Shown: positions 19,935 to 36,867 of the stretch, piece by piece
Layout: the number at the start of each line of letters is the position of its first letter
Numbering within the stretch: the first letter of the stretch is position 1
Assembly: GCF_013282575.1 (NCBI RefSeq)
Contig: NZ_JAAAYE010000009.1
Location: forward strand, 1-64,000
Source of the DNA: Paraburkholderia sp. NMBU_R16
GTDB lineage: Bacteria > Pseudomonadota > Gammaproteobacteria > Burkholderiales > Burkholderiaceae
DNA length: 64,000 nt
Reading direction: 5' to 3'
Translations under genes and position numbers: made by a program
Notes under the pieces: generated by a model
The model's database searches: none
The model's input: only the letters and a program-made list of their open reading frames with translations
What the model was told of the DNA's origin: nothing

Positions 19935-20077
19935 CGTTCTCCGCAATCTGTTGTCCGCGCACCGTCATACGCCGTTCGAAGCATCGCGAGCGGCGGCACC
20001 TGCCTCGGTTCCCCTCATCGCTCAGCGCCAATGCCGGCAAGCCTTCGCGCGCTGCCGAGAGCCTCGCGTCGCGCGCC

Positions 20078-20093
20078 TGGCATAGCCTGTGCA
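20078..20093 (+). promoter_or_regulatory. Sigma-54 promoter of peptide/TolC operon
   Basis: TGGCATAGCCTGTGCA has the invariant GG (20079-20080) and GC (20091-20092) separated by exactly 10 bases, against consensus TGGCAYG-N4-TTGCW. The predicted start is near 20104, about 66 bases before the peptide ATG. Copies precede the duplicate peptide gene (34374-34389), and similar elements precede the genes at 31880 and 32392. Confidence 0.8.
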
Positions 20094-20169
20094 GTATGAG
20101 GTCCGAGCCCGCAACACTTGCAGCTCACTATCCTCGAAGTCCCTTTGCTTAATCTTTTGGAGAACTGTC

Positions 20170-20439
20170 ATGAAAGCGCTGATGATCGAAGACCTGAGCG
20201 TCACCAAAGAACTCGACGGCCGTGCAATGTCCGCAGTACGCGGCGGCACGCTGGGCTACTACTGGCCGCTGGCGTATTCGCCCGTGCATGTCACCGATAC
20301 GACCAATTTCAGTGCGCAGCAGGTCATCGGTCAAACGAACAGTATCGTGAACAACACGGGCAACAACGTCGCTTTCGCGAGCGACATCCACTCGACGGTC
20401 AAGCCCCAGCAAACCGCCTCGAACACGATCAACTTCTGA
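20170..20439 (+). CDS. Double-glycine leader peptide precursor P1 (copy A)
   Basis: This 89-aa precursor has a 26-residue leader (MKALMIEDLSVTKELDGR, then AMSAVRGG) and a 63-residue core TLGYYWPLAY... rich in Asn, Thr, Gln and Ser with no Cys. The GG at 25-26 is the expected cut site for the C39 peptidase of the exporter encoded at 26390. The core segment QQVIGQTNSIVNNTGNN resembles that of precursor P2. GGAG lies about 8 bases before the ATG. A near-identical copy lies at 34028-34297 (two residue changes). Function (toxin, signal, fibre) is unknown. Confidence 0.85.
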   Translation: MKALMIEDLSVTKELDGRAMSAVRGGTLGYYWPLAYSPVHVTDTTNFSAQQVIGQTNSIVNNTGNNVAFASDIHSTVKPQQTASNTINF

Positions 20440-20456
20440 TCGTGCGGGCCCCGCCG

Positions 20457-20481
20457 CCGTGGAGGCGTCAAGCCTCCACGG
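20457..20481 (+). terminator. Hairpin between peptide gene and TolC-like gene
   Basis: CCGTGGAGGC-gtcaa-GCCTCCACGG forms a perfect 10-bp stem with a 5-base loop, 18 bases after the peptide stop; a T-run follows only at about 20513. It probably acts as a partial terminator or 3' stabiliser, giving more peptide than outer-membrane protein. The same hairpin (6-bp core) is kept in the inverted copy at 33991-34007. Confidence 0.55.
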
Positions 20482-20591
20482 CCGGCGCGGCCGGGCAGCC
20501 GCCGGGCACTCGCTTTTTTCGCGGCAGCATACGAGAACGCCACTTCCTCCGCAGTTCGTCCCATCGATAAACGTCATCCCAGGAGCAGAAC

Positions 20592-22085
20592 GTGAACCAT
20601 TCGACAGGCCCGGCTCGCGCGTCGATCTTCCGCAGCCACACGCGCGCGTTCTTCGGGCACGCTATCGCAGCGGGTCTCGGTGCAATCGTCCTCTCCGGCT
20701 GCATGGACCTGAAAATCCCCGCTTACCAGCGCCCCGACATGCCCGAGAAGACCACCTGGGCGCATACGGAGCGACCGGTGTCGGCGTCCGACACGGTGGA
20801 CCCGCAGTGGTGGCGTTCATTCGACGACGCATATCTCGATTCGCTCATCGACAAGGCGATCGCCGGCAATGTGGACATCAAGGTGCTCGCCGCGCGCATT
20901 CGTGTCGCGGGGGCCGAGATCGGCGAAGTGCGCGCCGGCGCATTGCCGAGCGCCGATTTGGGCGCCGGTGCCGATTTCGAAAAGAGCACGCACCAGCGGC
21001 TCACGAAAACCATCAATCTAGGCACCCAGGTCAACTGGGACATCGACATCTGGGGCAAGGTCGAGAAGGGCGTCCAAGCGCAAAAGGCCGAATACCACGC
21101 TTCCGAGGCGGACTGGCGCGCCGGTTATCTGACGCTCGTCGCGGGCGTATCGAGCACGTACTTCCAGATTCTTCAATTCGACGATCAGATCGAGCAGGAG
21201 CAAAAGACGCTCGCCAAGAACAAGCAGATTCTCGCCATCTATCAGTCCATGCTCGCCGGCGGTCTCGTGCCGCAAACCGAAGTGCTGCGCCAGCGGGCGG
21301 AGATCAACGGGCTGGCGAACGAACTCATCGATTTACAGCGCTCGAGAGATCTCGCCGAGAACGCGCTTGCCACGCTCGTCGGCGTCCCGGCCGGCGAGTT
21401 CAAGATGCCCGCCGGACACTTGCGCGAGCGCGTCAAGCTGCCCGAGGTGCCGATGGGCTTACCGGCACAGTTGCTGGGCCGCCGCCCCGATGTCGTCGCC
21501 GCACAGTACCGCGTGCTCGAATCGTATGACTCGATCGGAGCGGCGAAGCTGGCGCAGTTGCCGAGTATCAGTCTCACCGGCCGAGGCGGCACGGCGGCGT
21601 TCGCACTTTCCGATCTGTTCAAGGCGTTCACATTCAGCTTCTTGCCGAGCATCAATCTGCCCATGTTCGATCCGAGCGTGAAAGCGCACATCAGGACGAC
21701 AGAGGCCCAAAGCGAGGTGGTGGAGCAGCAGTACCGGCAGACTGTGTTCGCCGCCTTCGAGGAGGTCGAGAACGCGCTCGTCAATCTCGACGCGCACAAG
21801 AAGCAACGCCTCGAGCTTCAGCAGCAAAACGCGCATCTGCGCGTCGTGGCCGCCCAGATCGAAGCGCAGTTGAAAGAGGGCGTGGTGTCGCAGCTGGAAG
21901 TGTTCGAATCGGAGCGCTCGCTCGCAGCCGCGGAACTCGCGCTCGTCGCGAATCATCAGCAGATTCTTACCGATACGGTCACGCTGTACAAGGCGATCGG
22001 CGGTGGCTGGCCTGCTGTCGTCGTCGAGAATGCGAGCAGCGATGCCGCGCGCGGCGCCGGGGCCGGCGCTCCAATCGTCAAGTGA
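20592..22085 (+). CDS. TolC/NodT-type outer-membrane efflux lipoprotein
   Basis: This 497-aa outer-membrane channel subunit has a lipobox LSGC at about residues 34-37, the NodT-family element QWWRSFDDAYLDSLIDKA and two OEP repeats rich in coiled-coil helices. It starts at GTG (20592) with AGGAG at 20581-20585. It sits downstream of the sigma-54-driven peptide gene and upstream of the adaptor and ABC genes. I infer it is the outer-membrane exit of the peptide exporter rather than a drug pump; the usual RND partner is absent. Confidence 0.85.
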   Translation: MNHSTGPARASIFRSHTRAFFGHAIAAGLGAIVLSGCMDLKIPAYQRPDMPEKTTWAHTERPVSASDTVDPQWWRSFDDAYLDSLIDKAIAGNVDIKVLAARIRVAGAEIGEVRAGALPSADLGAGADFEKSTHQRLTKTINLGTQVNWDIDIWGKVEKGVQAQKAEYHASEADWRAGYLTLVAGVSSTYFQILQFDDQIEQEQKTLAKNKQILAIYQSMLAGGLVPQTEVLRQRAEINGLANELIDLQRSRDLAENALATLVGVPAGEFKMPAGHLRERVKLPEVPMGLPAQLLGRRPDVVAAQYRVLESYDSIGAAKLAQLPSISLTGRGGTAAFALSDLFKAFTFSFLPSINLPMFDPSVKAHIRTTEAQSEVVEQQYRQTVFAAFEEVENALVNLDAHKKQRLELQQQNAHLRVVAAQIEAQLKEGVVSQLEVFESERSLAAAELALVANHQQILTDTVTLYKAIGGGWPAVVVENASSDAARGAGAGAPIVK

Positions 22086-22131
22086 ACGGTGCACACGTGT
22101 AGGTAACCCGACGAGCCCCGATCGGTCCGGA

Positions 22132-22159
22132 TTGACTGCCGTCTTACGTCGCCTACACT
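22132..22159 (+). promoter_or_regulatory. Sigma-70-type promoter for exporter/signalling operon
   Basis: TTGACT (22132-22137), a 16-base spacer and TACACT (22154-22159) form a fair sigma-70 promoter about 90 bases before the FHA gene. No -24/-12 element is seen in this gap. The exporter and activator genes may thus be expressed basally while the peptide genes await sigma-54 activation. Confidence 0.45.
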
Positions 22160-22252
22160 TTCCTCACGCTCTCCCCGCTTCGCACGACCCCTTCGTCTCA
22201 GGGGAAGCAAGAAAACTGGGGCGGCCCGGCGCTCATCTGCAGGTGTCGAACC

Positions 22253-24199
22253 ATGGCTTCCGATGGTCTTCCGATTGCCGAAATGGAGATGCCGCTCACG
22301 CGGCGCTTCGATGTCGTCTTGAAACCGGTATCGCATCCGGAGATCGGCGATATTCGCATCGAGAACGATCTGTTCGCGATAGGACGGGCCGAACCGCCAT
22401 TTGCGTCCGCGCGTGCCGAGATCGTCGCGGAGCTGTCGCGCCGCCATGCGAAGCTCTTTATCGAGAACGGCGCCGCATACATCGCCGATCTCGGCAGCAA
22501 GAACGGTACGATGCTCAACGGTCGCGACGTGCGCGAGAAGCCGCAAGTGCTCCAAGACGGGGATGAGTTGCGCTTTGCCGGGGTACTCGTTTGCCGCGTC
22601 GCACTCGTGCCGCGCACGGCAAATCGCGCGGTACGCGATGCGCGTTCGGTGGTCCTTACGCTGACGCCGGAGCGCGCCGACCTCGGTCTCGAGCCGATCG
22701 TCGTGACGAGTTTTCCGTTCCTCGTCAGCAAGACGGACGAGACCTTTGCGCGATACCGCGATGCTTATCCCCATCAAGTGAATTACCTGTCGCGCCGTCA
22801 CGCGCACGTGTTCGCCGAAAACGGCGAGCTGTTCGTCGAGGATCTCGGCAGCACGAATGGCACGTTCGTCGAGGGAACCCGTCTCGAGGAGCGTGCGGTA
22901 CGACTCGAAGACGGCGCGCTGCTCGCTTTTGGCGGCAATCACTTCGCGTATCGCGTGGGTATTCGCCGCGGCAGCGTTGCCGATCCGACGCTGACGCAGA
23001 TGCAAGCGCAAGCCCGGACGCAGATCGAAGCCCCGGCAGATGCTGGGCAGCGCGCCGAGCCCGCGAACGCCGGATCCGCCACCGTACCCGCGGCCATGCC
23101 GTTGGCGGATATGGACAGGACGACGTTCATCGCTGCCCCGCACTCGTTTCTCGACATCTTCTGCGTCGATCCCGCGGGAACGCAGGAAGACGGAGCGAGC
23201 CGCGGCACCGCGGCGGCGAAATCGAGCGGCGCCGCGCATGAAGCGCCAAGGCGCCGGGGCGCAATCGAGACGTTCATCGACGAACTATCCATCGCGCTGG
23301 GCGGCAACGCCGCGCCGGACATGCGGCGCATCGGCCGCTGGGGCGCAATCGCATTCGCGCTCGTCTGTGCGCTCGTCGCAACGCTCTATCTGCGAGGCAG
23401 CCCGCAACGCGATATGAGAGCGCTCATGGCGGCTGGACGCTTCGATGCGGCGGCGCAATTGGCGAACGGCTACCTGGCACGGCATCCGGGCGACGCCGCG
23501 TTCGAGGCGGCAGGCGCCGAAGCGCTGATCAAGGCGAAGGTGCCGGACTGGCTTGCGGCGTTAAAGGCGAACGCGTTCGACCGGGCGCGCGCCATGGCCG
23601 CCGAGATGCAGGGATTGGCGAGCCACAACCGGGAGGCGGCGCCGCTCATTGCCGAGCTCGTCTGGATGGGCGAGCTCGAATCGTTCTGGAGGGGACGCGG
23701 CGGCTCGGACGCGCCGATCAGGATCTATCGCGACGAGGTCCCGATCACGTCACTGATCACGCGCTGGAACGATGACCCGAACGAGCATCAGCGCGCACTC
23801 GAGCAAATCCTGTCGTATCTGCCAGCGTTCAGCGAACCGTATGCTGACGCCCTTAGCCATCTGCGCAAGCTTCAAACCGACGACTCGGTGTACGTGGCCG
23901 CGCTCGAGCGTCTGAAAGCGGCCATCGAAGCCGCGCTCAACGACGCGCGCACCGACCGGCTCGATGCGCTGCCCGCGATGATCGACGACTACAGCGAGCG
24001 GTATCCGCGCCTGGCGGGCTTGTCGCTCCTGCGCGACGATCTGCGCGCTTATCGGCAGATCGAGCGCGATGCGCGTGCCGGCCGGGCGCAGGCGGCAGCG
24101 GACGAACTCGCGTCGGTACACTTCGCGACGCCGCCGTTTCAAGTGCGAATTCCAAAACTGCAAGCGCTGAGCGCATCGGCATCGGGGAGTGCGAGGTGA
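22253..24199 (+). CDS. Membrane protein with two cytoplasmic FHA domains
   Basis: This 648-aa protein has two FHA phosphothreonine-binding domains: FHA1 at about 20-118 (IGRAE, LSRRHAKL, LGSKNGT) and FHA2 at about 134-236 (LSRRHAHVF, LGSTNGTF). A linker containing DRTTFIAAP is followed by one membrane helix (about 364-380) and a roughly 265-residue helical domain on the far side. Both FHA domains keep the Arg/Ser/His/Asn binding residues. It is a likely reader of threonines phosphorylated by the kinase at 34714. Its stop overlaps the GTG of the HlyD gene. Confidence 0.85.
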   Translation: MASDGLPIAEMEMPLTRRFDVVLKPVSHPEIGDIRIENDLFAIGRAEPPFASARAEIVAELSRRHAKLFIENGAAYIADLGSKNGTMLNGRDVREKPQVLQDGDELRFAGVLVCRVALVPRTANRAVRDARSVVLTLTPERADLGLEPIVVTSFPFLVSKTDETFARYRDAYPHQVNYLSRRHAHVFAENGELFVEDLGSTNGTFVEGTRLEERAVRLEDGALLAFGGNHFAYRVGIRRGSVADPTLTQMQAQARTQIEAPADAGQRAEPANAGSATVPAAMPLADMDRTTFIAAPHSFLDIFCVDPAGTQEDGASRGTAAAKSSGAAHEAPRRRGAIETFIDELSIALGGNAAPDMRRIGRWGAIAFALVCALVATLYLRGSPQRDMRALMAAGRFDAAAQLANGYLARHPGDAAFEAAGAEALIKAKVPDWLAALKANAFDRARAMAAEMQGLASHNREAAPLIAELVWMGELESFWRGRGGSDAPIRIYRDEVPITSLITRWNDDPNEHQRALEQILSYLPAFSEPYADALSHLRKLQTDDSVYVAALERLKAAIEAALNDARTDRLDALPAMIDDYSERYPRLAGLSLLRDDLRAYRQIERDARAGRAQAAADELASVHFATPPFQVRIPKLQALSASASGSAR

Positions 24200-25578
24200 G
24201 CGCCGCGCGCGAGCCGCGTCGCCTCGAGCCGTTGAACGAGGCGCTCGAGGAGCACGGTGCCGAGGGCATCGCGATCCTCACCGAAGAGCCGCGGCGAATC
24301 ATCGAGGCAGCCGTCGTCGCAGTTGCGGCACTGATCGTCATCGCGCTCGCGTGGTCGTTCATCGGACGGGCGGACGTGATCGTGACAGCCGATGGCGCGC
24401 TTGCACCCGAATCGGAAGTGCGTCGCATCTATGCGCCTGTCGACGGCGAGCTCGCCGATATCTATATCGCCGAAGGGCAGCCTGTGAAGAAGGACGACGT
24501 GATCGGCCGCATCAACGCGCGCGGCGCCATCGAAGCCGCGACGAACGCGCTCGACGCACGCTTGAAACTCGAGGACGCCGAGCATGAATGGCAGCAGTTT
24601 CCGCAAAAAAAAGCATTGATGCAGCGTAAGGCAGACGCGCTCAAAGCGCAGATCGAAGTGGCGGAGCACCAGCACGAAAACCGCATCGCCGAGGGCACGA
24701 GCAAGCTCGCGCAAGCGCAAAAGGCGCAGCTCGACGCGGCGCGCAGCAACATCGACAACGCGGCGCGTGCGCGCGATCTCGCGAAAGGCGAGGCGGACAA
24801 GTTCGCACGCCTTTTCACGTTGCCCGGCGGCGGAGGCGTATCGCAAACGCAGGTCGAGGAAAAGAAAAGCGCATACCTGCAATCCGAGAACAACGTGCGC
24901 ATCGCACAGGCCAAGCTCGCGGAACTCGAGGCGCAATCGAGCCACGAGTTCGCGCAGGCCAAGGCGCAGCTCGAAGGCAGTGGCGAGACGCTCACGAATC
25001 TGCGCATCGAATACGACGCGACGCTGCGCGACATCGCCAATACGGAAGACAAGCTGCGCCTCCAGGTGCAAACAGCACGCCTTGCCGCCGATGCCGCTGC
25101 GCGCATTCGCTTCGAAAATATCGACAAGGACAATTTTCTGCTCGTACTTGCGCCGGTCTCGGGGGTCATTACCGACGTGACGACCACGCAGCCCGGCGAC
25201 AAGATCCAGGCCAACACGCCGCTCGGCGGCATCGCGCCGGCCAACGCGCGGCCCGTCGTGAAGGTGGAGATCGCCGAACAGGATCGCGCCTTCTTGCGAG
25301 AGGGCCAGCGCGTGAAGCTCAAGTTCAACGCGTTCGCCTATCAGCGCTACGGCGTGATCTCGGGCGTACTCGAATACATTTCGCCGGCGACGAAGCCCTC
25401 GGCGCGCACGAAGCTGCCGGTCTATGAAGGCCGTGTCACGCTGGCGCGCGACTATTACGCGATCGGCGATACCAAATACCCGTTGCGCTACGGCATGACG
25501 GCGACCGCGGAAATCGTCGTGCGCGAGCGCCGCCTCATCGATTTTGCGCTCGACCCGTTCCGTCAGGTCGCCGGATAA
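24196..25578 (+). CDS. HlyD-type membrane fusion protein
   Basis: This 460-aa periplasmic adaptor has a cytoplasmic tail of about 33 residues, one membrane helix (about 34-56), a lipoyl-like half (APVDGELADIYIAEGQPVKK), a long coiled coil (about 110-300) and a beta-barrel (VKVEIAEQDRAFLREGQRVKLK). It starts at GTG (24196), overlapping the FHA stop. It would link the C39-ABC transporter in the inner membrane to the TolC/NodT protein. Confidence 0.88.
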   Translation: MSAAREPRRLEPLNEALEEHGAEGIAILTEEPRRIIEAAVVAVAALIVIALAWSFIGRADVIVTADGALAPESEVRRIYAPVDGELADIYIAEGQPVKKDDVIGRINARGAIEAATNALDARLKLEDAEHEWQQFPQKKALMQRKADALKAQIEVAEHQHENRIAEGTSKLAQAQKAQLDAARSNIDNAARARDLAKGEADKFARLFTLPGGGGVSQTQVEEKKSAYLQSENNVRIAQAKLAELEAQSSHEFAQAKAQLEGSGETLTNLRIEYDATLRDIANTEDKLRLQVQTARLAADAAARIRFENIDKDNFLLVLAPVSGVITDVTTTQPGDKIQANTPLGGIAPANARPVVKVEIAEQDRAFLREGQRVKLKFNAFAYQRYGVISGVLEYISPATKPSARTKLPVYEGRVTLARDYYAIGDTKYPLRYGMTATAEIVVRERRLIDFALDPFRQVAG

Positions 25579-25613: not shown

Positions 25614-26366
25614 ATGGCGTCAATCGTGCGAATCGACGACGAAGTCATCGATACCGAAGACTTCGTCAGAATGCTGAAGCTCACGGGGCAATTCGAAAGC
25701 CTCGTCGAGCAGCAAGTCCGCGACCGGCTCACGGTCATCGCCGCGAAAAAGCTCGGCGTGAGCGTGTCGGACGACGAGATTCAGGCGCGCGCCGACCAGT
25801 TTCGGCGGGTGCGCGGCTTGCACCGCGCGGCGGACATGAACCGCTATCTCGACGCGTTCGGGGTGAGCCTCGACGAGTTCGAGGCATTCGTGACCGACAC
25901 GCTCTACCAGGAGAAGATGCTTGCCGAGATCGGCTCCGACGAGGCGGTCGAGGCGTACTTCAAGCTCAATTCGCCGAAGTTCGACAGCGTCGAGGTGAGT
26001 CATATCGTACTCGAGTCGGAAGGGCAGGCACGCGAGATGATGTCGATCCTTGCCGACGATCCGGAGAGCTTCGCTGACATGGCACGCGAACATTCGATCG
26101 CCGACACGCGCGAGAGTGGAGGCGTGATCGGCAAAGTGCTGCGCGGCTCGCTCAAGACCGAGATCGAAGCGAAGGTCTTCAATGCGCAAGCCGGCGACCT
26201 GATTGGCCCCTTCGCGGCTCCCGACGGCTCTTTCTACGAGATTTTCTCGGTGACGGCGAAATATCCGGCGACGCTCGACGCCGACGTCGCATCCGAAGTA
26301 CGGCGCGTCTTGCGTGAGGAATGGTTGGCCGCGCGAGCTCAGGAACACATCATCGAAGCGCGCTGA
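25614..26366 (+). CDS. Cytosolic PpiC/parvulin-type peptidyl-prolyl isomerase
   Basis: This 250-aa protein has a SurA-like N-terminal helical domain (residues 1-105) and a parvulin domain (about 120-225; VSHIVLESEGQA, FADMAREHS, GGVIGKVLRG, GDLIGPF). There is no signal peptide, unlike SurA/PpiD. It lies between the adaptor and the C39-ABC gene. Cyanobacterial peptide-export clusters also pair such rotamases with C39-ABC transporters. It may chaperone the precursor peptides before export (inference). Confidence 0.82.
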   Translation: MASIVRIDDEVIDTEDFVRMLKLTGQFESLVEQQVRDRLTVIAAKKLGVSVSDDEIQARADQFRRVRGLHRAADMNRYLDAFGVSLDEFEAFVTDTLYQEKMLAEIGSDEAVEAYFKLNSPKFDSVEVSHIVLESEGQAREMMSILADDPESFADMAREHSIADTRESGGVIGKVLRGSLKTEIEAKVFNAQAGDLIGPFAAPDGSFYEIFSVTAKYPATLDADVASEVRRVLREEWLAARAQEHIIEAR

Positions 26367-26389: not shown

Positions 26390-29300
26390 ATGGACGCGCA
26401 AATCCCGGTACCGGCCGAAGTTCAGTCCCTAGTGGAATTTCTGTCCACGGTCGAACCGTTGTCGCTCTTTACGCGCGATGAACTCGAGCGCCTCGCCGGG
26501 CAGGCGCTGCCGCGCACGTTTGCATTCGGCGATACCGTGTGCAGCCGCGGTGAGCCCGCCGACGGGCTTTTCGTGGTACGTGCCGGCACGGTGCGTCTTT
26601 TCATCGAGGAGCACGGCAAGGAGACGAGCCTCGGCGTGCGCAAGGCCGGCGAAGCGTTCGGCGAAATCGCCATGTTGCGCACGTACTGGCATGAGGCCTC
26701 GGTGCGAGCCTCGTCGAAGGCCGAACTGGTGTTCATTCCGCGCACGGCGATCGAGGCGGCGCTTGCCGGCAACGACGCCGCGCGTTCGTTCGTGACGAGT
26801 TACGTGGCGCTCAGCTCGGCCGGCGGTTTTGTCGCACGGCTTTTCGATTTGCGCGGCAAGCTGACACGCGCGGAGCTTGCCGAATACGTTTCGAGCGTAG
26901 GCGTCAAGCGTGTCGGGGCGGGCAAGGCCATCCTGGAGCAGGGGTCTCGCGACGATATGCGGCTTTACGTCGTACGCCAAGGCGAAGTACGCGTGACATA
27001 TCGAGCGGACAGTGAGGATTATCCGCTCGCCACGCTCGGCGCCGGCGCCGTTTTCGGTGAGCGCGCTTGCGTGCTGCGGCAGGAACAGCAGGCCACGGTG
27101 ACGGCCGTCACGGAAGTGCGGCTCATCGTGATTCCCGAAAAGACGCTGCACTTCATGCTCGAGCGCAACCCGAAGCTGCGCGAAGTACTCGAAGAGCGCA
27201 TCCGCTTCATGGACCGCGAGCTGCAGCGGCACAAGCTCCTCGCCGAGCGGCGTAAGCGTCCCGTCACGCTCGATCTCGGCGCAAGCGAGGAATTCGGCGC
27301 GAAGCTCATCAAGCGCTTCGCGCTCGTCGAGCAGGCGGAGGAGATGGATTGCGGTGCGGCCTGTCTCGCGATGATCTGCCGCCACCACGGTATTCCGATG
27401 ACACTCGGCAAGCTGCGCGAGCTCGCCAATGTCACGACACAAGGCGCAACGCTCGATAGCCTCGCGCGCGCGGGGGAGTCGCTCGGCTTCACGGCACGCG
27501 GCGTGCAATGCACCTACGAGGCAATGCGCGGTTTCGATTTGCCGTTCATCGTGCACTGGGAGGGCTATCACTACGTCGTCGTCTATGGTGTCTCGAAGCG
27601 CTGGGTGCGTGTCGCGGACCCGGCGCTCGGGTTTCGCAAGCTCACGCTCGAGGAGTTCGAGCGCGGCTGGAGCGGCACATGTCTGCTCCTGGCGGCCGGC
27701 GAGGCAAGCACGCGAGACGCGGCGTCGCGCTCGCCATGGGTGCGCTTCGTCGGCTATCTGAGGCCGTACAAGAAGATCCTTGCGCATCTTTTTCTTGCGA
27801 CGTTCGTCATTCAGGTGCTCGGCATTGTCCCGCCGCTCATCATTCAGAACATCCTCGATGGCGTCGTCGTTCACCAGAACGTGAGCCTGCTCAATCTGCT
27901 CATCGTCGGCCTCGTCATTTCGAATCTGTTCACGCAACTGATGTCGACGATTCGTGCGTATCTCTCGAACTTCATGGTGCGCAGCCTCGACTTTTCGATG
28001 ATGTCGCAGTTCTTCAAGCACACGATGTCGCTGCCGCTCGGGTTTTTCGCCAAACGCAAGACGGGCGATGTCTTCGCACGCTTCCAGGAGAACCAGACGA
28101 TCCGCGCGTTCCTGACCGAATCGACGGTGACGACGGTGCTCAATCTGCTGATGATCGTCATCTACTTCACGGTGATGTTTCTCTATAACGTGCAGATGAC
28201 GTTGCTCCTGATTGCGTTCGTCTTGCCGATCATGGCGTTGACAGCGATCGCCACGCCGAGGATCAAGCGGTTTGCGCGCGACGTGTTCGCGGCGTCGACG
28301 GACGCGAAATCGCTACTGATGGAGACGCTGGGCGGCATCGAAACCGTCAAGGGCATGGGCATCGAGCGGCCCGTGCGGCTCAAGTGGGAGCGCAAGTACG
28401 CGAAAGCGCTCGACGTGCAGTACCGCGCCCAATCGTTTCATATCCTGGTTGCGCTTGGCAGCCAGTTGCTCAATGCCGCCACGACGATCGTGATCCTCTG
28501 GGTTGGCGCGAAGCTGGTGCTCGCACAGGAGTTGAGCATCGGTCAGTTGATTGCGTTCAACGCTTTCATGGGTAGCGTGCTCGCGCCGTTGATGGGGCTC
28601 GTGGGGCTGTGGAGCCTGATGAACGATGCGGCGGTGGCGATGGAGCGGCTCGGCGACGTGCTCGACATCGAGCCCGAGCAAAAGCCCGCCGAATGCGCCT
28701 CACGCGTGCTGCTCCCGGACCTGCAGGGCGATATCAAGCTGAGCGGCGTCTACTTTCGCTACGGCAGCAACGAAACGCCCTATGTGCTCGAGAACATCAG
28801 CTTCGACATCAAGCCGGGCGAAATGGTGGCGATCGTCGGCAGAAGCGGCTCGGGCAAGACGACGCTCGCGAAGCTGCTCGTCGGTTTCTATACGCCGACG
28901 GATGGCAAGATCGTCGTCGACGGCTACGACATGAGCAACGTCGATCAAGCGTATTACCGCGCGCAGATAGGCTACGTCATGCAGACCAACCTGGTGTTTT
29001 CGGGCTCGATCGCCGAGAACATCGCGTGCGGCGATGCAAGTCCGGACCGGCGCCGCATCGAGGAGGTCGCGAAGATGGCCGACGCGCATGCGTTCATCAG
29101 CAAGATGCCGCTCGGCTATGAGCAGATCGTCGGCGAGCGCGGCGTGGGGCTGTCGGGCGGTCAGATCCAACGGCTTTGCATCGCGCGTGCGCTTTATCAC
29201 AACCCGAGGCTGATCGTGTTCGATGAAGCGACTTCGTCGCTCGACACGCAATCGGAGAGCAACATCCTCGCTAACATGCAGGAGATCCTGGCGGGACGCA

Positions 29301-30798: not shown

Positions 30799-31575
30799 TT
30801 ACCGCGCGACGGAAGGATTGACGAGCGTCCGGTCGGCGGCACCCGGGTCGTCGACGCGTATGACGATGACGGATACGTTGTCGCGACCGCCTTCGCGCAG
30901 CGCCATCTCGACGAGCGCATGCGCGGCCTCGGCGCACTCGCTTCGCGCAAGTGCGAGGGTGAGCGCGATGTTCGTGTCGCCGACTTCGTTCGTGAGCCCG
31001 TCGCTGCAAAGGAGGAACACGTCGCCGTCGCACAGGTCGACACGCGCCTCCTCGATCTCGAGCCAATCCGCCGCGCCGATTGCGCGCGTGATCAGGTGAT
31101 GTGCCGGATGATTACGCGCTTCTTCGCCCGTCAGATAGCCCTGCGCTCTCAGTTCTTCGACTTGGCTGTGGTCGCGCGTGAGCTGCCGCAGCGATGTATC
31201 GCGGTAGCGGTAGACGCGGCTGTCGCCCGCCCATAGCAGGGCACAACTGCGTCCGCTCGCGAGGCACGCTACCACCGTGCTGCCGATCGCGCGCACGCCG
31301 CGCCGCGCAGCTTCCTCGCGCAACCGCAGGTTCACCGATTGAAGCGCGTCGCGTGCCGCGGCGACGAACTCAGCGAGGCTGTCGGGCTCCGGAAGCGCCG
31401 CGAGTGCATCGACGACCAGGCGGCTTGCCACGTCTCCCGCCGCGTGCCCGCCCATGCCATCGGCAACGGCCCACAGGCCGCGCTGCGGCATATCGAGGCA
31501 AGCATCCTCGTTGATGTTGCGCACGTGGCCGACGTCGCTGCGCGATGCCGATGTCCAGATGAGTTCGGTTGCCAT
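30799..31575 (-). CDS. PP2C-family Ser/Thr phosphatase
   Basis: This 258-aa soluble PPM phosphatase shows the metal-binding motifs RNINEDA, AVADGMGGHAAG, LWAGDSRVYRYRD, LTRDHSQVEEL and LLCSDGLTNEV, plus the C-terminal GGRDNVSVIVIRV. It would dephosphorylate targets of the Ser/Thr kinase encoded at 34714. It lies 20 bases downstream of peptide gene P2 on the same strand, so it should be induced by the same sigma-54 promoter, a possible negative feedback. It is convergent with the activator gene. Confidence 0.9.
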   Translation of the reverse strand: MATELIWTSASRSDVGHVRNINEDACLDMPQRGLWAVADGMGGHAAGDVASRLVVDALAALPEPDSLAEFVAAARDALQSVNLRLREEAARRGVRAIGSTVVACLASGRSCALLWAGDSRVYRYRDTSLRQLTRDHSQVEELRAQGYLTGEEARNHPAHHLITRAIGAADWLEIEEARVDLCDGDVFLLCSDGLTNEVGDTNIALTLALARSECAEAAHALVEMALREGGRDNVSVIVIRVDDPGAADRTLVNPSVAR

Positions 31576-31595: not shown

Positions 31596-31880
31596 TCAGC
31601 CCAGCCCGTTCCTGCCGTTTTCACCCGCGACGACGGTGAGATTCGCGTTCGAGCCCGCGTTGTTCACATCGATATTCTGAAACTGATTGACGATCTGATT
31701 CGCGTAGAACGTGTTGTTGGTCTGATAAAGATTGACGACGGGGCCGACACTCGGCACGGGTGGCGCGAATGGCTGAATCCAGCCGAAGACCCAGGGCGCG
31801 CCTGCGCCCCGGATGAGCGACATCGCGTGGCGCGGCATTTCACGCGTCGTATTCAAGTCGGTGATCCTGATGACGGCCAT
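31596..31880 (-). CDS. Double-glycine-type leader peptide precursor P2
   Basis: This 94-aa precursor has a leader in exact register with P1 (D8, L9, E14, A19, M20, S21, I23, R24, G25), but position 26 is Ala (GA instead of GG), as in some C39 substrates. The 68-residue core begins with a Pro/Trp-rich stretch (GAPWVFGWIQPFAPPVPSVG) and then ANQIVNQFQNIDVNNAGSN, similar to the P1 core. There is no Cys. AGGAGA lies 7 bases before the ATG. It is the first gene of an operon with the PP2C phosphatase. Confidence 0.8.
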   Translation of the reverse strand: MAVIRITDLNTTREMPRHAMSLIRGAGAPWVFGWIQPFAPPVPSVGPVVNLYQTNNTFYANQIVNQFQNIDVNNAGSNANLTVVAGENGRNGLG

Positions 31881-31967: not shown

Positions 31968-31983
31968 CGCAAGCGTTATGCCA
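31968..31983 (-). promoter_or_regulatory. Sigma-54 promoter of P2-phosphatase operon
   Basis: Read on the minus strand, TGGCATAACGCTTGCG has GG (31982-31981) and GC (31970-31969) 10 bases apart and matches both consensus halves well (TGGCA and TTGC). The predicted start is near 31958, about 78 bases before the P2 ATG. Confidence 0.8.
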
Positions 31984-32100: not shown

Positions 32101-32119
32101 TGTCGGTGCACGGCCGACA
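32101..32119. promoter_or_regulatory. Candidate sigma-54 activator site (UAS), copy B
   Basis: TGTCGGTGCACGGCCGACA is a perfect TGTCGG-N7-CCGACA palindrome, about 150 bases from the minus-strand and 220 bases from the plus-strand predicted starts. It has arms and spacing identical to 19916-19934. The spacer also ends in CGG in both. Confidence 0.7.
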
Positions 32120-32305: not shown

Positions 32306-32321
32306 TGGCATAGTCGATGCA
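32306..32321 (+). promoter_or_regulatory. Sigma-54 promoter of LRAT-protein gene
   Basis: TGGCATAGTCGATGCA has GG (32307-32308) and GC (32319-32320) at 10-base spacing, nearly the same as the P1 promoter. The predicted start is near 32332, about 60 bases before the ATG at 32392. Confidence 0.78.
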
Positions 32322-32391: not shown

Positions 32392-32871
32392 ATGAACACC
32401 GACCTCCAACCAGCCGAAACCGAATACGCCATCGGCGCTCATTTGGTCTCGCGTCGTGCCGGCTACAGCCATCACGGCATCTACGTCGGCAACGGCAACG
32501 TCGTTCACTACGCGGGCTTTTGCACGACCCTCCATCGCGGTCCGGTGGAAGAAGTGTCGCTCGAGCGGTTTGCCGCGGGGCATGGGATAGAGGTCATCGA
32601 TGAATCGAATGCCCGCTACGCCGGCCTCGAAGCCGTACAACGCGCGCGCTCGCGCCTTGGCGAAAACCACTACCGGCTGCTGACCAACAACTGCGAGCAC
32701 TTTTGCACGTGGTGCCTCGAAGGGGCGGCCCGCAGCGAACAGGTCCGCGAGTGCGTGCGGCATCCGGCCATTGCGATGCGTGCGATGACGGGCATGTATC
32801 GCGCCTTCATCGCAGCTCGCCGTCAGTACCACGCGCCGTCCGACATCGGCCGCATGGCGCTCACGGCGTGA
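32392..32871 (+). CDS. LRAT-domain (NlpC/P60-superfamily) protein
   Basis: This 159-aa protein carries an LRAT-type thiol acyltransferase/hydrolase fold: catalytic His in the segment YSHHGIYVGNGNVVHYAG and catalytic Cys in NNCEHFCTWC. It has no signal peptide and no GG leader. It is driven by its own sigma-54 promoter facing the P2 operon, so it belongs to the same regulon. Possible roles are acylation of a peptide, lipid remodelling during export, or self-protection; none can be chosen from sequence. ATG 32392 has only a weak ribosome-binding site. Confidence 0.75.
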   Translation: MNTDLQPAETEYAIGAHLVSRRAGYSHHGIYVGNGNVVHYAGFCTTLHRGPVEEVSLERFAAGHGIEVIDESNARYAGLEAVQRARSRLGENHYRLLTNNCEHFCTWCLEGAARSEQVRECVRHPAIAMRAMTGMYRAFIAARRQYHAPSDIGRMALTA

Positions 32872-32944: not shown

Positions 32945-33199
32945 ATGAATACCGACCACGCATCCTCTGCCACAGCGCTTCGTCAACTGGTCGACAAGTG
33001 GCTGGCTCCCACGCCGTCCGTACCGGCTCGCGTAACGCGCGTTGGCCGCATGACGCCCGCCCGGCATCGCTATGTGCTCGTTGAAACCGCCCATACGACA
33101 GGCACGCTCTCGATCTTCTTCTTCCGGCACGACGATGGTTCGTGGTGCGTATTCCCGCCTGCCATTACACGTCCTGCGATGTTGCGACTCGCTGCTTGA
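32945..33199 (+). CDS. Small 84-aa protein of unknown function
   Basis: This 84-aa, Cys-poor soluble protein (MNTDHASSATALRQLVDKWL...) has an AGGGAG ribosome-binding site about 7 bases upstream. It follows the LRAT gene by 73 bases and is probably in the same sigma-54 transcript. The middle shows alternating basic and hydrophobic residues (ARVTRVGRMTPARHRYVLVE) and an aromatic strand FFFRHDDGSW. I do not recognise a family. A role as accessory or immunity protein would be speculation. Confidence 0.6.
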   Translation: MNTDHASSATALRQLVDKWLAPTPSVPARVTRVGRMTPARHRYVLVETAHTTGTLSIFFFRHDDGSWCVFPPAITRPAMLRLAA

Positions 33200-33250: not shown

Positions 33251-33469
33251 CTAACGCAGCAGCGTGGTGCGCACGCTGCCCTTGCCGAAGAACGGCCCGA
33301 CCGATTCCGCCTTTTCGACGACGGTTGTCTGAGGAAAACCGGTGAATGTTTGCCGACGCGTGAACAGCGTTCGATGGACTTGAACCATCGAGCCGCCTGT
33401 GATAGCGGACATCGCTTGCCTGTCGAGCTCGACGCTCTCCGGTAGATCTTGAATCACGAGCGTGGCCAT
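33251..33469 (-). CDS. Double-glycine leader peptide precursor P3
   Basis: This 72-aa precursor has a 26-residue leader in exact register with the others (MATLVIQDLPESVELDRQ, AMSAITGG). The short 46-residue core is basic (SMVQVHRTLFTRRQTF... ending RTTLLR), unlike the Asn-rich cores of P1, P2 and P4. There is no Cys. The start at 33469 is set by leader register. It may have its own weaker sigma-54 promoter at 33536-33551. Confidence 0.78.
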   Translation of the reverse strand: MATLVIQDLPESVELDRQAMSAITGGSMVQVHRTLFTRRQTFTGFPQTTVVEKAESVGPFFGKGSVRTTLLR

Positions 33470-33551: not shown

Positions 33552-33598
33552 TTCAGTATAGGAGGCGATGCGGGTATTCGCACGCCGAGCGCTGCCAT

Positions 33599-33636
33599 AA
33601 AAAAGGCAACCGAGACGGGGGAGCCTCGGTTGCCTT
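33599..33636 (-). terminator. Rho-independent terminator after P4
   Basis: On the minus strand AAGGCAACCGAG and CTCGGTTGCCTT form a 12-bp perfect stem with a 10-base loop, followed by a T-run (33604-33599 region). It lies 24 bases after the P4 stop and should end the P1(copy B)-P4 transcript. Confidence 0.85.
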
Positions 33637-33659
33637 GATCGGCGAGTGCCGCCGGCGGC

Positions 33660-33926
33660 TCACAGACGAAAGCCGGTACTCGCGAACTGCGACGGATTGA
33701 CGTTGAACTTGAGCGGGCCCAAATCCGCGCCGATGACGCCGTTGTTGTTGAGAGCATTGACGACGACAGCCTGATTCTGCTCGATGTTCTGGCTCACGCC
33801 GACAGTGACATTGGCGATGGGGCCGAGCCCCGCGAGCCACGAATTGGTGCCGCCGCGAATCCGGGACATGACCTTGCGGTCGAGTTCCGAGTCGGGCGCC
33901 AACTCGCGAATGACGATGGATGACAT
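33660..33926 (-). CDS. Double-glycine leader peptide precursor P4
   Basis: This 88-aa precursor has a 26-residue leader in exact register (MSSIVIRELAPDSELDRK, VMSRIRGG). The 62-residue core contains Asn/Gln/Val-rich stretches such as SQNIEQNQAVVVNALNNNG, resembling P1 and P2 cores, and has no Cys. CGGAG lies about 8 bases before the ATG. It is the second gene after P1 copy B, separated by a hairpin, and ends at a strong terminator. Confidence 0.8.
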   Translation of the reverse strand: MSSIVIRELAPDSELDRKVMSRIRGGTNSWLAGLGPIANVTVGVSQNIEQNQAVVVNALNNNGVIGADLGPLKFNVNPSQFASTGFRL

Positions 33927-34027
33927 GGCGTTACTCCGAAAAAGGGTGGTGGCGGGGCGAGAGAGGCGGCGCCCGGCCGGGGCCGGCCATGGAGGCTTGA
34001 CGCCTCCGCAGCGGCGGGTTCGCACGA

Positions 34028-34297
34028 TCAGAAGTTGATCGTGTTCGAGGCGGTTTGCTTGGGCTTGACCGTCGAGTGGATGTCGCTCGCGAAAGCGACG
34101 TTGTTGCCCGTGTTGTTCACGATATCGTTCGTTTGACCGATGACCTGCTGCGCACTGAAATTGGTCGTATCGGTGACATGCACGGGCGAATACGCCAGCG
34201 GCCAGTAGTAGCCCAGCGTGCCGCCGCGTACTGCGGACATTGCACGGCCGTCGAGTTCTTTGGTGACGCTCAGGTCTTCGATCATCAGCGCTTTCAT
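34028..34297 (-). CDS. Double-glycine leader peptide precursor P1 (copy B)
   Basis: This 89-aa protein is identical to copy A at 20170-20439 except S-to-D in QTNDIVNN and Q-to-K in TVKPKQTA, both in the core; the leader is invariant. It has the same sigma-54 promoter, 5' leader and ribosome-binding site. It is followed by a hairpin (33991-34007) and by P4. Whether both copies are expressed together is unknown. Confidence 0.85.
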   Translation of the reverse strand: MKALMIEDLSVTKELDGRAMSAVRGGTLGYYWPLAYSPVHVTDTTNFSAQQVIGQTNDIVNNTGNNVAFASDIHSTVKPKQTASNTINF

Positions 34298-34373
34298 GAC
34301 AGTTCTCCAAAAGATTAAGCAAAGGGACTTCGAGGATAGTGAGCTGCAAGTGTTGCGGGCTCGGACCTCATAC

Positions 34374-34389
34374 TGCACAGGCTATGCCA
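34374..34389 (-). promoter_or_regulatory. Sigma-54 promoter of P1 copy B / P4 operon
   Basis: On the minus strand TGGCATAGCCTGTGCA is identical to the copy A promoter, with GG at 34388-34387 and GC at 34376-34375. The predicted start is near 34364, about 67 bases before the ATG. Confidence 0.8.
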
Positions 34390-34500
34390 GGTGCGCGATC
34401 CGGGCCTTCCGATTGGGCGAAGAAGGCCATGGGGCAAGCCTTTGCGGCATTTCGACGGGGCATTGCGCACGGCGAGCGATAGCGCATCGCGCGCCCGCGG

Positions 34501-34519
34501 TGATGGTCGTGTGCCGACA
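34501..34519. promoter_or_regulatory. Degenerate activator site (UAS), copy C
   Basis: TGATGG-N7-CCGACA keeps one perfect arm (CCGACA, 34514-34519) and 4 of 6 bases of the other arm, at the same 7-base spacing as copies A and B. It lies about 146 bases upstream of the predicted start of P1 copy B. Confidence 0.45.
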
Positions 34520-34588
34520 CACTGCGCCCACCTGTTGTCTGCCCGGCAACAGCTATGTGTCGCTTCGCACGCTGAGTTCGGGCACCGA

Positions 34589-34617
34589 TTGCGCAAGGTC
34601 TCGGCGCAGACTAGTAT
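34589..34617 (+). promoter_or_regulatory. Sigma-70-type promoter of kinase gene
   Basis: TTGCGC (34589-34594), a 17-base spacer and TAGTAT (34612-34617) lie about 97 bases before the kinase ATG. This is a moderate match; no sigma-54 element faces the kinase. Confidence 0.4.
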
Positions 34618-34713
34618 CGATCGACGAGCGCGCGTTTGAACTGGCGTGAAAGGACGGTGAAGCGTCGCGCACGTTGGAAAAACGCGTTGTTTAGAAGCCT
34701 GAGAGGCGCATGC

Positions 34714-36867
34714 ATGACGAGCCTTGCGGAGCTGATCCAGACCTTCCGAAGGGGTGCGCTGTCGCACGACGCGTTCATCATGCAGATCGATCGCACGCTG
34801 GCGCTCGACCACGCCAACTGTGCGCGGCTGCGTGAAACGCTCGACGAAACGCAGACAAAAGATCCGCTGCCCGACGACATCTATGCCGAGCTCATTCGCC
34901 ACATCGAACGGTTTGCGGGCGCGCAAGCCGGCTTTGGCGATGAAACGCGCGTGCAAGTCGCGTCTCCGCCGCCGGTGCGGCGGGCGGCGGCGCCGGGCCC
35001 CGCGGCCGAGCCCGCCGAAGGCACGTTCGAGCGTGCGAAGGGCATCGGCGATACGCTCAATGGTCGTTTCGTACTCGAGGAATGCCTCGGCGTGGGCGGC
35101 ATGGGCACCGTCTACAAGGCGCTCGATCTGCGCAAGCTCGAAGCAGCGGACCGCAAGCCGTATATCGCGATCAAGGTGTTGAACGTTCAATTCCGCGGCC
35201 AGCCCACTTCGCTCATCGCCTTGCAGCGCGAAGCGCGCAAAGCGCAGACGCTCGCACATCGCAACATCGTCACCGTCTACGACTTCGACCGCGACGGTCC
35301 GATCGTCTATATCACGATGGAGTACCTCTCGGGCAATCCGCTCAGCAAGCTGTTGCGCGAGCCCGGCTTTGCGGGCATGCCCTACGAGAAGGCGTTGCCG
35401 GTCATCGCGGGTATGGGGCGCGCGCTGGCTTATGCGCACGAGCGCGGCTTCGTGCATTGCGACTTCAAGCCGGCCAACGTGTTTCTCACCGATGCCGGCG
35501 AAGTGAAGGTGATCGACTTCGGCATCGCACGTGCGCTCACGCGTCCGGAGGAAGAGAGCGATGTGACGGTGTTCGATCCGGCGACGCTCGGCGGCATCAC
35601 GCCCGCCTACGCGAGCCCCGAAATGTTCGAACATCGCGAGCCGGATCCGCGAGACGATGTCTATGCCCTCGGTTGTGTGACCTATGAACTGCTGACGGGA
35701 CGTCATCCGTTCAACCGCGTATCGGCCATCCAGGCGCGCGGCGAGAAGCGGCAGCCGGAGCGCCCGAAGGACCTCGATCGACGGCAGTGGCGAACCCTCA
35801 GCGAGTCGCTATCGTTCGATCGTGCGACGCGCACGTCGAGCGTCGAACGGTTTCTCGAGGGCATGGGCGCCCAATTGCACACGCGGCCGTCGCCGCCGCC
35901 ATCGCGACCTTCGCAGCCGATCAAGGCCCCGCAACCGGCGGGCGCTGCGCAGCCTTCGCACATGGCGACGCCTCGCCTAAGCCTTACGGTGTGGAAGGGG
36001 GCGGGCGTTTCGTTAGCTGCGCTGATCGCTGTCGCGACACTTTGGTATGGCTACCACGAGTGGTCCGGCCCGCGCTCGAGCGCCGACTCAAAGGTGAATG
36101 CCGGCTCCGGCTCGGGCACCGGCAGTGGCCAACCTCAGCCGCCTGCCGCGGCGCAAACGCACGCATCGCCACCGCCACCCGTGCCGCTGTCGCTTGCAGC
36201 GGTGAGCCTGGTGCTCGCCGCGCAGCCGTGCTCGTCGTTGAGCGCATCGATCGACGGCAAGGCGTTGCAGGTTCGAGGCTATGTCGAAGGGCACACAGGC
36301 GTCACGCATTTGCGCGATGCGCTTGCGCGATTCGCCGGAGCAACGGCGCCAAGCATCGACGTGCAGCCGGTTAGCGAGAACAACTGCGACGTGGTGACAG
36401 CTTTGGCGCCGTACTGGACGTCGACGCATCAAGCGGGCAGTGTCGCTGCGGGCACATCGATCCGCACGAAGGCTCCGAACGGACAACTGACTGAAGGCAG
36501 TCCGCTCGTGCTGGACGTGACGACACCCGGCTATGACACGTATGTCAACGTGGATTACTACGTCCTCGACGGAAGCGTGGTGCATCTCGTGCCGAGCCGA
36601 CGTGCAAAAGACAACCAGGCGCCGCCGAACTACAAGGCGACGATCGGGAGCATGGGTGACTGGGTCATCGGCAAGCCGTTCGGCACTGAGATGATCGTTG
36701 TCGTCGTAACGCCCGCGCCGCTTTTCGACACGATGCGACCGGATTCGGAACCGCGTGCGGACTATCTTGCCGCGATGAAAGAGCGCTTGAGGCAAATGGG
36801 CGAGAAGTACGGGGCCGCCCGTATCGGCGTCGACTATGCGCAGATCACGACGCGCGCGGGGCATTGA
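34714..36867 (+). CDS. Transmembrane Ser/Thr protein kinase
   Basis: This 717-aa Hanks-type kinase has a glycine loop GVGGMGTVYK (126-135), catalytic Lys154 (IAIKVL), a catalytic loop HCDFKPANVFL with Asp250 and Asn255, DFG at 268-270 and ASPEM near 300. HCD replaces HRD, so it is a non-RD kinase. A Pro-rich linker, one membrane helix (about 425-445) and a C-terminal domain resembling DUF4384 (DGSVVHLVPSRRAKDNQ) follow, probably in the periplasm. With the FHA protein and PP2C phosphatase it forms a threonine-phosphorylation circuit. GAGAGG lies 7 bases before ATG 34714. Confidence 0.9.
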   Translation: MTSLAELIQTFRRGALSHDAFIMQIDRTLALDHANCARLRETLDETQTKDPLPDDIYAELIRHIERFAGAQAGFGDETRVQVASPPPVRRAAAPGPAAEPAEGTFERAKGIGDTLNGRFVLEECLGVGGMGTVYKALDLRKLEAADRKPYIAIKVLNVQFRGQPTSLIALQREARKAQTLAHRNIVTVYDFDRDGPIVYITMEYLSGNPLSKLLREPGFAGMPYEKALPVIAGMGRALAYAHERGFVHCDFKPANVFLTDAGEVKVIDFGIARALTRPEEESDVTVFDPATLGGITPAYASPEMFEHREPDPRDDVYALGCVTYELLTGRHPFNRVSAIQARGEKRQPERPKDLDRRQWRTLSESLSFDRATRTSSVERFLEGMGAQLHTRPSPPPSRPSQPIKAPQPAGAAQPSHMATPRLSLTVWKGAGVSLAALIAVATLWYGYHEWSGPRSSADSKVNAGSGSGTGSGQPQPPAAAQTHASPPPPVPLSLAAVSLVLAAQPCSSLSASIDGKALQVRGYVEGHTGVTHLRDALARFAGATAPSIDVQPVSENNCDVVTALAPYWTSTHQAGSVAAGTSIRTKAPNGQLTEGSPLVLDVTTPGYDTYVNVDYYVLDGSVVHLVPSRRAKDNQAPPNYKATIGSMGDWVIGKPFGTEMIVVVVTPAPLFDTMRPDSEPRADYLAAMKERLRQMGEKYGAARIGVDYAQITTRAGH

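Follow-up and report, generated by a model that had tools for sequence, protein, structure and literature searches.

The question raised by the locus described here is whether a peptide exporter may be inherited together with, and governed by, a phosphorylation circuit of its own. The locus lies in the first 64,000 nucleotides of contig NZ_JAAAYE010000009.1 of Paraburkholderia sp. NMBU_R16 (the window, by which we mean this whole stretch). It contains precursors of peptides with double-glycine (GG) leaders, an ATP-binding cassette (ABC) exporter carrying a C39 peptidase domain, its HlyD-type adaptor, NodT-type outer-membrane channel and PpiC-type rotamase, together with a membrane Ser/Thr kinase, a PP2C phosphatase, a protein with FHA domains and a sigma-54 activator, that is, a bacterial enhancer-binding protein (bEBP). 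An initial annotation had proposed that these genes form a peptide-export system wired to a kinase/phosphatase/FHA/sigma-54 circuit. The comparative analysis supports the greater part of this interpretation, which also gains a candidate mechanism from it: we consider it probable that the locus represents one inherited secretion system possessing its own regulon, controlled by the kinase, the FHA protein and the phosphatase, with the activator acting on the precursor genes.

Co-inheritance of the exporter and the signalling genes

The initial annotation would have been contradicted if the signalling genes were randomly missing from relatives that carry the exporter, a pattern that was not seen among 299 Burkholderiaceae genomes. 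The exporter was found in 103 of them, the FHA gene in 104, the kinase in 104 and the leaders in 107; all four occur together in 102 genomes, none of the four in 192, and a mixed state in only 5 (exporter versus FHA, Fisher p = 5e-77, a statistic that ignores phylogeny). The mixed genomes are G241, with only a fragment of the exporter and kinase, G214, whose FHA gene contains stops, G296, in whose 350 contigs no exporter was seen, perhaps owing to a gap, and two with leaders only (G178 and G190).

The same gene order recurs in the 80 named loci from other genomes used for the locus comparison. Where at least 9.9 kb of DNA was available on the side concerned (71 loci on each side), the upstream neighbours were PpiC in 71, HlyD, FHA and NodT in 68 each, DUF4399 in 66 and FGE in 62, and the downstream ones bEBP in 71, PP2C and pepB in 66 each and LRAT in 56. 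The joint presence of kinase, PP2C and FHA genes known from the type VI secretion pathway is thus found here, both as co-occurrence in genomes and in the 66 loci with PP2C. In some Paraburkholderia and related genomes (L047, L072 and L086) about 2-4 kb of extra DNA lies between the bEBP and PP2C genes.

The position of the kinase gene is variable. In 20 of the 80 loci a kinase match is found no more than 10 kb from the exporter, to one side or the other, and its place is often upstream beside FGE (6/7 extended regions). In ten genomes of one genus, picked for having both genes on one contig, the kinase lies 101-191 kb from the exporter and both are kept; in G116 the distance is about 1.05 Mb on the same contig, and in G196 and G291 the kinase is on another contig. 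In two Noviherbaspirillum loci and one Herbaspirillum locus, the DNA upstream of the exporter lacks FHA, HlyD and NodT. All five genomes chosen for disturbed order or distant lineage (two Noviherbaspirillum, Herbaspirillum, Aromatoleum and a metagenome-assembled genome of Oxalobacteraceae) nevertheless have FHA and kinase genes, and the system as such is also found in records under the names Noviherbaspirillum, Herbaspirillum and Aromatoleum. This distribution suggests that exporter, kinase, phosphatase, FHA protein and activator travel as one inherited package.

Among 398 Pseudomonadota genomes, ten carry an exporter at E<=1e-170, three of them close (one being the window's own) and seven distant, with 33-38% identity. 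An FHA gene lies beside six of the seven distant exporters according to tblastn, and beside the seventh (L129) according to Pfam; since FHA genes adjoin all seven, the coupling of C39 exporters and FHA proteins is older than the Burkholderiaceae, the bEBP and the kinase being less constant in the distant loci. Upstream of these exporters both bEBP and PpiC were found in three loci and PpiC at the contig end in one, two contigs end too early, and the 10 kb of upstream DNA in L132 contains neither gene. Two other features of these loci are a cNMP-binding domain fused to a Ser/Thr kinase (L132, 7913-9403), upstream of the distant HlyD-exporter-FHA genes, and, in L129 (1061-6899), a row of three OEP genes for outer-membrane channels that follows the FHA gene.

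A predicted sigma-54 regulon of peptide genes

In the 6.28 Mb genome the leader profile finds only five matches at E<=1e-6, all in the locus, and one more weak one (E=0.02); the leader consensus is MxxLxIxDLxxxxxLDRKAMSAVRGG. From 220 leader matches, 196 precursors were retained after dropping duplicates and open reading frames without a clear GG-type motif, and were sorted by simple patterns into family A (109 sequences, with Gln and Asn in NGNN.AF contexts), family B (63 sequences, GAPWVFGWIQPY...NQFQ..DV.N), family C (11 basic sequences ending TLLR or similar) and family D (13 sequences, N.NV...QN..Q.Q.V.VNALNN.G.IGAGFGPL). Four of the window's leaders end in GG and that of pepB in GA; in family B as a whole the ends are GG in 39/63, GA in 23/63 and GR in 1/63. 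None of the five window precursors matched a Pfam or an NCBIfam family above its cut-off.

Sites of the sigma-54 type (-24/-12) were scored with approximate weights, a score of at least 0.85 being taken as good; the shuffles of the precursor upstream regions kept only single-base content, and those for the words and palindromes described below were drawn from dinucleotide frequencies. A good site precedes 142 of the 195 precursors for which 200 nt of upstream DNA was available, versus 11 of 975 shuffles. The sites belong mainly to families A (81/108) and B (60/63), 141/171 together, and lie mostly 70-89 nt before the start codon in A and 40-79 nt in B. The LRAT gene has one in 49/60 cases. In the window the sites sit in the gaps before pepA, pepE, pepB and the LRAT gene. 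None was found before the exporter (0/87), bEBP (0/85), FHA (0/81), PP2C (0/72), kinase (0/21) and the two DUF4399 genes (a, 0/75; b, 0/69), and few before hyp84 (3/55), FGE (2/56), HlyD (1/83) and PpiC (1/86); in these control-gene counts, and in the orthologue counts given below, two extended regions, L134 and L136, repeat the named loci L041 and L046. The pattern suggests that the switch turns on the peptide genes and not the pump.

When the 200 nt preceding the promoters were searched for words in excess, CCAACA/TGTTGG was retrieved in 118 of 135 non-redundant regions versus 12.4 expected, a word that resolves into the palindrome TGTYGG-N7-CCRACA. In a test set of 145 promoters, chosen for a score of at least 0.8 within 130 nt, this putative upstream activator site (UAS) is present with up to two mismatches in 143, versus 38 of 1450 shuffles. 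With up to one mismatch, 156 sites fall in 35.8 kb of promoter DNA and 64 in the remaining 1764 kb of the loci, a density 120 times higher. Most palindromes have their centre 100-160 nt before position -26 and, in 81 of the 145 promoters, they form pairs 32 or 33 bp apart, that is, three helical turns. The window's genome has only two perfect copies, both within the locus. Outside the discovery set, promoter and UAS (up to two mismatches) were found together at 8/8 precursors beside displaced kinases, where the promoters score 0.83-0.93 and seven reach at least 0.85, and at 2/2 isolated precursors (0.86), with only 1/4 in a divergent tandem group of one genome.

Both elements typical of sigma-54 control, the upstream palindrome and the -24/-12 site, are thus present at the target genes, and on this evidence a sigma-54 activator is linked to the precursor genes; we infer that the palindrome is bound by the bEBP of the exporter operon. 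The LRAT-fold gene belongs to this predicted regulon. Moreover, the PP2C gene follows pepB on the same strand at 20 nt and is devoid of a sigma-54 site of its own, and therefore the pepB-PP2C arrangement suggests negative feedback.

Some additional features of the precursor genes can be mentioned. pepA and pepE (20076-20439 and 34028-34391, on opposite strands and 14 kb apart) are 98% identical, and the 94 nt before their start codons, promoter included, are identical, with different activator sites; we read this as a probable recent duplication or gene conversion. pepE and pepD probably form one transcription unit, because a terminator-like stem lies after pepD; terminator-like matches as such are not above shuffles in number (13 versus 15.1). 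One genome (G295, contig C9, L166-L168) has twenty leader matches; some of them form tandem groups at a distance of about 0.75 Mb from the exporter, where three of the four tested have no activator site, and a single gene is about 0.94 Mb away.

Organization of the locus and of its proteins

The features of the locus are listed in Table 1. From the FGE gene (-) the order runs through two DUF4399 genes, pepA and the series NodT-FHA-HlyD-PpiC-exporter-activator (+), then PP2C and pepB (-), LRAT and hyp84 (+), pepC, pepD and pepE (-) and the kinase (+). Every gene named in the initial annotation is present with the expected Pfam domain, and the overlaps reported there, FHA with HlyD and exporter with activator, are real and of 4 bp each. 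The extent proposed for the locus was too small at the upstream end, where FGE and both DUF4399 genes are syntenic. The four best named matches of the exporter are from Trinickia, with 84-88% identity, and point to Trinickia or a near relative as the probable affiliation of the genome.

Table 1. Features of the locus (17.6-36.9 kb of the window)
Feature	Position	Strand	Evidence or remark
FGE-sulfatase-domain protein, apparent signal peptide	17648..18835	-	Pfam FGE-sulfatase; syntenic neighbour
DUF4399 protein a	18968..19417	+	Pfam DUF4399; syntenic neighbour
DUF4399 protein b	19439..19909	+	Pfam DUF4399; syntenic neighbour
pepA putative upstream activator site	19916..19934	none	perfect TGTCGG-N7-CCGACA
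pepA second activator-like site	19949..19967	none	2 mismatches; 33 bp downstream of first
pepA predicted sigma-54 -24/-12 site	20078..20093	+	TGGCATAGCCTGTGCA
pepA, GG-leader precursor, family A	20170..20439	+	leader profile E 7.6e-16
NodT-type outer-membrane channel	20592..22085	+	Pfam OEP; TIGR01845 above cut-off
Membrane protein: two N-terminal FHA domains, transmembrane segment (by eye), C-terminal domain	22253..24199	+	FHA in two stretches
HlyD-type adaptor	24196..25578	+	Pfam HlyD_3; 4 bp overlap with FHA gene
PpiC-type rotamase	25614..26366	+	Pfam Rotamase; TIGR04500 below cut-off
Exporter, cNMP-cNMP-C39 peptidase-ABC	26390..29458	+	cNMP_binding x2, Peptidase_C39, ABC_membrane, ABC_tran
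Sigma-54 activator (bEBP), receiver-less, GAFTGA, presumably Fis-type helix-turn-helix	29455..30789	+	Sigma54_activat E 2.3e-70
PP2C phosphatase, C-terminal T-x-x-N-P tail	30799..31575	-	Pfam PP2C_2; 20 nt behind pepB
pepB, precursor family B, leader end RGA	31596..31880	-	leader profile E 1.2e-7
pepB-PP2C predicted sigma-54 site	31968..31983	-	TGGCATAACGCTTGCG
Putative activator site between pepB and LRAT gene	32101..32119	none	perfect
LRAT gene predicted sigma-54 site	32306..32321	+	TGGCATAGTCGATGCA
LRAT-fold (cysteine acyltransferase/hydrolase-like) protein	32392..32871	+	Pfam LRAT E 2.1e-23
Conserved 84-residue protein (hyp84)	32945..33199	+	in 54/80 loci; no Pfam match
pepC, family C, basic core	33251..33469	-	-24/-12-like site, no activator site
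Terminator-like 14-pair stem and T run after pepE-pepD	33603..33636	-	
pepD, precursor family D	33660..33926	-	101 nt from pepE
pepE, precursor family A	34028..34297	-	near-identical copy of pepA
pepE predicted sigma-54 site	34374..34389	-	TGGCATAGCCTGTGCA
pepE putative activator site	34501..34519	none	1 mismatch
pepE second putative activator site	34533..34551	none	2 mismatches; 32 bp away
Membrane Ser/Thr kinase, C-terminal DUF4384	34714..36867	+	Pkinase E 1.5e-40, DUF4384

In peptidase-containing ABC transporters (PCAT) the C39 domain cuts the leaders and a conduit formed by the ABC protein, HlyD and an outer-membrane channel exports the cores. In the present exporter the C39 peptidase forms a single protein with the ABC membrane and ATPase domains, and five leader precursors lie nearby. 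Walker A and LSGGQ motifs are found in 88/88 orthologues; among the C39 residues, the Q..DCG..C pattern is found in 84/88, the Asp pattern in 82/88 and the strict His pattern in 57/88. Among solved structures the exporter is matched best by an ABC-type bacteriocin transporter (E 1.6e-142), which we take to be PCAT1, an HlyB entry being also among the best. The scores for the following NCBIfam exporter subfamilies stay under the cut-offs, in bits: HlyB 622 of 725.6, NHLP 550 of 853.3 and bacteriocin_ABC 488 of 523.9, LssB likewise. The C39-cNMP-ABC architecture recognized in the initial annotation holds as far as both cNMP domains are present; in the window, each of them (HEASVRA and QQATVTA) is without what we take to be the usual phosphate-contacting Arg. 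Cyclic-nucleotide control of the exporter is not indicated because this Arg is missing in both domains, and we set it aside. The rotamase has no obvious signal peptide (by eye) and is probably cytoplasmic. A role of the locus in defence is unsupported, the PADLOC matches of exporter, activator, phosphatase and kinase looking like generic domain matches.

Concerning the signalling proteins, the kinase motifs AIKVL, HCDFKPAN and DFGIAR are kept in 20/20 sequences, and the enzyme therefore looks catalytically intact; a Cys takes the place of the Arg of the usual kinase catalytic motif HRD. A transmembrane segment (by eye) precedes its DUF4384, and the C-terminal domains of both the kinase and the FHA protein are expected to be periplasmic. 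Both SRRH motifs of the FHA protein occur in 81/82 orthologues, and the first domain (FHA1) has the Gly-Arg of the phospho-site pocket in 80/82. After the FHA domains a conserved D-x-TTF...HSFLDIF stretch follows (strict pattern in 48/82); no solved chain matched this protein at E<=1e-4. The T-x-x-N-P tail of the PP2C phosphatase is present in 75/75 sequences (58 with the strict pattern and 17 variants), and we propose it as a plausible FHA ligand. The bEBP shows the AAA+ domain, the GAFTGA motif, which belongs to the 95% consensus of an alignment of 85 orthologues, and at its C-terminus a strongly conserved helix-turn-helix that we take to be of the Fis type, as befits a sigma-54 activator; no receiver domain was found by Pfam, the N-terminus being a conserved stretch of about 60 residues.

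Outside the locus, and named by eye only, a sulfatase-like and a formylglycine-generating-enzyme-like gene lie just upstream of it (13657-16000), besides the FGE-domain gene; at 38984-39648 a short antitoxin-like gene overlaps a PIN-domain-like gene, with the look of a VapBC-type pair; and at 41573-48824 an operon resembles a hydrogenase-4/formate hydrogenlyase-type complex.

Interpretation of the circuit and of the peptides

How might such a system work? The membrane kinase and the membrane FHA protein might report the state of the envelope or of the exporter. Threonine phosphorylation read by FHA1 would then set whether the activator is free to work, in a manner that can be likened to the partner proteins controlling other receiver-less activators. 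Once free, the activator would bind the palindrome, and precursors, LRAT protein and phosphatase would be made on demand. According to the biology of the family, the C39 domain would trim the leaders and the ABC-HlyD-NodT conduit would export the cores. Induction would also supply the PP2C phosphatase, which may reset the circuit.

Several known systems share parts of this scheme. With PCAT1 and its relatives and with the type I secretion of Gram-negative class II microcins, the locus has in common the C39-ABC fusion, double-glycine leaders, HlyD adaptor and outer-membrane channel, whereas the two N-terminal cNMP-fold domains, the NodT-type channel in the operon, the cytoplasmic-looking rotamase and the dedicated kinase/phosphatase/FHA/sigma-54 genes set it apart. 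The threonine-phosphorylation pathway of type VI secretion, PpkA-PppA-Fha, likewise has a membrane Ser/Thr kinase, a PP2C phosphatase and an FHA protein encoded with the secretion machine; here, in contrast, the kinase carries DUF4384, secretion is by a type I exporter of peptides and the output would include sigma-54 transcription. Type VI families were absent from the 10 locus proteins scanned with Pfam, the rest of the genome not having been searched. Receiver-less bEBPs are known, for instance PspF, which shares the AAA+ sigma-54 domain, the Fis-type helix-turn-helix and a short N-terminal region, and differs in that here the gene lies in the exporter operon and paired palindromes precede secreted-peptide genes. 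NHLP/NHLM-type and TIGR04500-associated maturation systems share the C39-ABC exporter, the HlyD-type adaptor and a PpiC-like protein, with partial scores for TIGR03796, TIGR03794 and TIGR04500 that are all below cut-off (550 vs 853, 61 vs 156 and 90 vs 180 bits, respectively). An in silico survey of double-glycine peptides in Gram-negatives by Dirix et al. (2004), cited in PMC3262810, may include some of these leaders. No description of an equivalent system was found in full-text searches of open papers. Three reviews (PMC8277102, PMC6363468, PMC10233263) give general accounts of tripartite exporters, PCAT and microcins; other genes are the subject of a paper on an insect-symbiosis region of Burkholderia (PMC9088363), and one on Azoarcus (PMC3262810) tested a different, weak C39 candidate. 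The components are each of a known kind; their combination, the nearly all-or-none inheritance and the dedicated regulon appear to be new.

Different observations weigh against the interpretation that we favour. Scanned over the whole window, the sigma-54 consensus gives 14 matches versus 12.9 expected and the palindrome, at two mismatches, 11 versus 9.2, both at chance level (a simple sigma-70 scan likewise shows no excess, 3 versus 2.9); only position and conservation, not whole-window counts, set the sites and palindromes above chance. At five other places in the genome a site misses the palindrome by a single base, and palindromes with up to one mismatch and no -24/-12 site occur in the 400 nt before FHA (16/81), kinase (15/21) and DUF4399a (5/75); in the window the one upstream of the kinase lies in the gap shared with pepE. 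A good -24/-12 site precedes NodT in 10/80 loci. Families C (1/11) and D (0/13) have a good match in only 1/24 cases; D can be read from the A promoter, and C is not so explained. As for the signal, the two FHA domains seen in the initial annotation are both there, and the second is without the phospho-site Gly-Arg: it reads FPFLVSK in the window, and a Ser-Lys pattern, FPxxxSK, fits 71/82 orthologues. Nor is the route by which a phospho-signal would enter the receiver-less activator visible in the sequence. Finally, purifying selection is not clearly seen in the cores of family A (median dN/dS, the ratio of non-synonymous to synonymous substitution rates, 0.89, with paralogues mixed), and for families B and A AlphaFold gave mean pLDDT values of 43.8 and 55.2 and no usable core model, so that the role assigned to the cores is based on composition only.

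This role, for which structural or matrix peptides (our preference), microcins and signals come into consideration, is indeed the weakest point. Asn and Gln make up 20-22% of the A, B and D cores versus 2-9% of eight measured locus proteins, and our best guess is that the cores, about 65 residues long, form a surface or matrix peptide assembling outside the cell rather than a toxin. A search for solved relatives with the family profiles gave a single match for B (E 0.4, an antibody chain, not convincing) and none for A. We also considered whether the LRAT protein might acylate the cores; in families A and B, none of the columns that are invariant or nearly so is a lysine.

An ordinary class II microcin or bacteriocin locus, with GG-leader toxins and an unrecognised immunity gene, seems unlikely to us. 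The GG leaders, the C39-ABC exporter and the presence of more than one precursor paralogue in each locus would be typical of it, and the quickly varying family A cores and the basic family C cores would fit as well. However, the A, B and D cores are nearly neutral as well as rich in Asn and Gln, and family B, the only one for which dN/dS is informative, is kept from Trinickia to Aromatoleum and Noviherbaspirillum under purifying selection (median 0.32, 0 of 1099 pairs above 1). Besides, no small membrane immunity-like gene was seen by eye beside the precursors in the window, where unknown families could hide one.

That the cores act as pheromones, inducing their own genes via the activator once the outer parts of the kinase or of the FHA protein have sensed them, is in our opinion about equally improbable. 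The position of DUF4384 behind a transmembrane segment, the adjacency of precursor genes to the kinase even far from the exporter and the fact that the precursor genes themselves constitute the regulon speak in its favour; the cores are nonetheless rather long to be pheromones, and one genome may have as many as 20 leader genes. This reading does not conflict with the regulatory part of our proposal. Lastly, that the kinase, phosphatase and FHA genes are mere neighbours controlling something else would agree with a phosphorylation deduced from genes alone and with kinase and FHA genes not always adjacent to the exporter, but it is made highly improbable by the nearly all-or-none co-occurrence, the FHA-HlyD overlap, the PP2C gene directly behind pepB and the FHA genes beside the distant exporters.

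Returning to a secretion system with its own regulon, a more detailed version is conceivable, which we put forward only tentatively: a type I exporter might have taken over a type VI-like circuit, to which an output in transcription was added, with the FHA protein as hub, the phosphatase docking on FHA1 via its tail, the kinase sensing the envelope, the supply of precursors following, through the activator, the state of the exporter, and the cores assembling on the cell surface. If this were true, the distant C39-FHA loci in other families, some of them with bEBP and PpiC and one with a kinase, would represent a class of secretion systems that is old, widespread and as yet without a name.

Roughly a third of the sampled Burkholderiaceae have the exporter, and named species of Paraburkholderia, Caballeronia, Cupriavidus and Trinickia are among its carriers; the locus is also present in Paraburkholderia xenovorans LB400 (L039). 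In such genomes the DNA signature of promoter and palindrome finds peptide genes even far from the exporter, and the locus offers a testable case in which Ser/Thr phosphorylation may control peptide secretion and sigma-54 transcription together.

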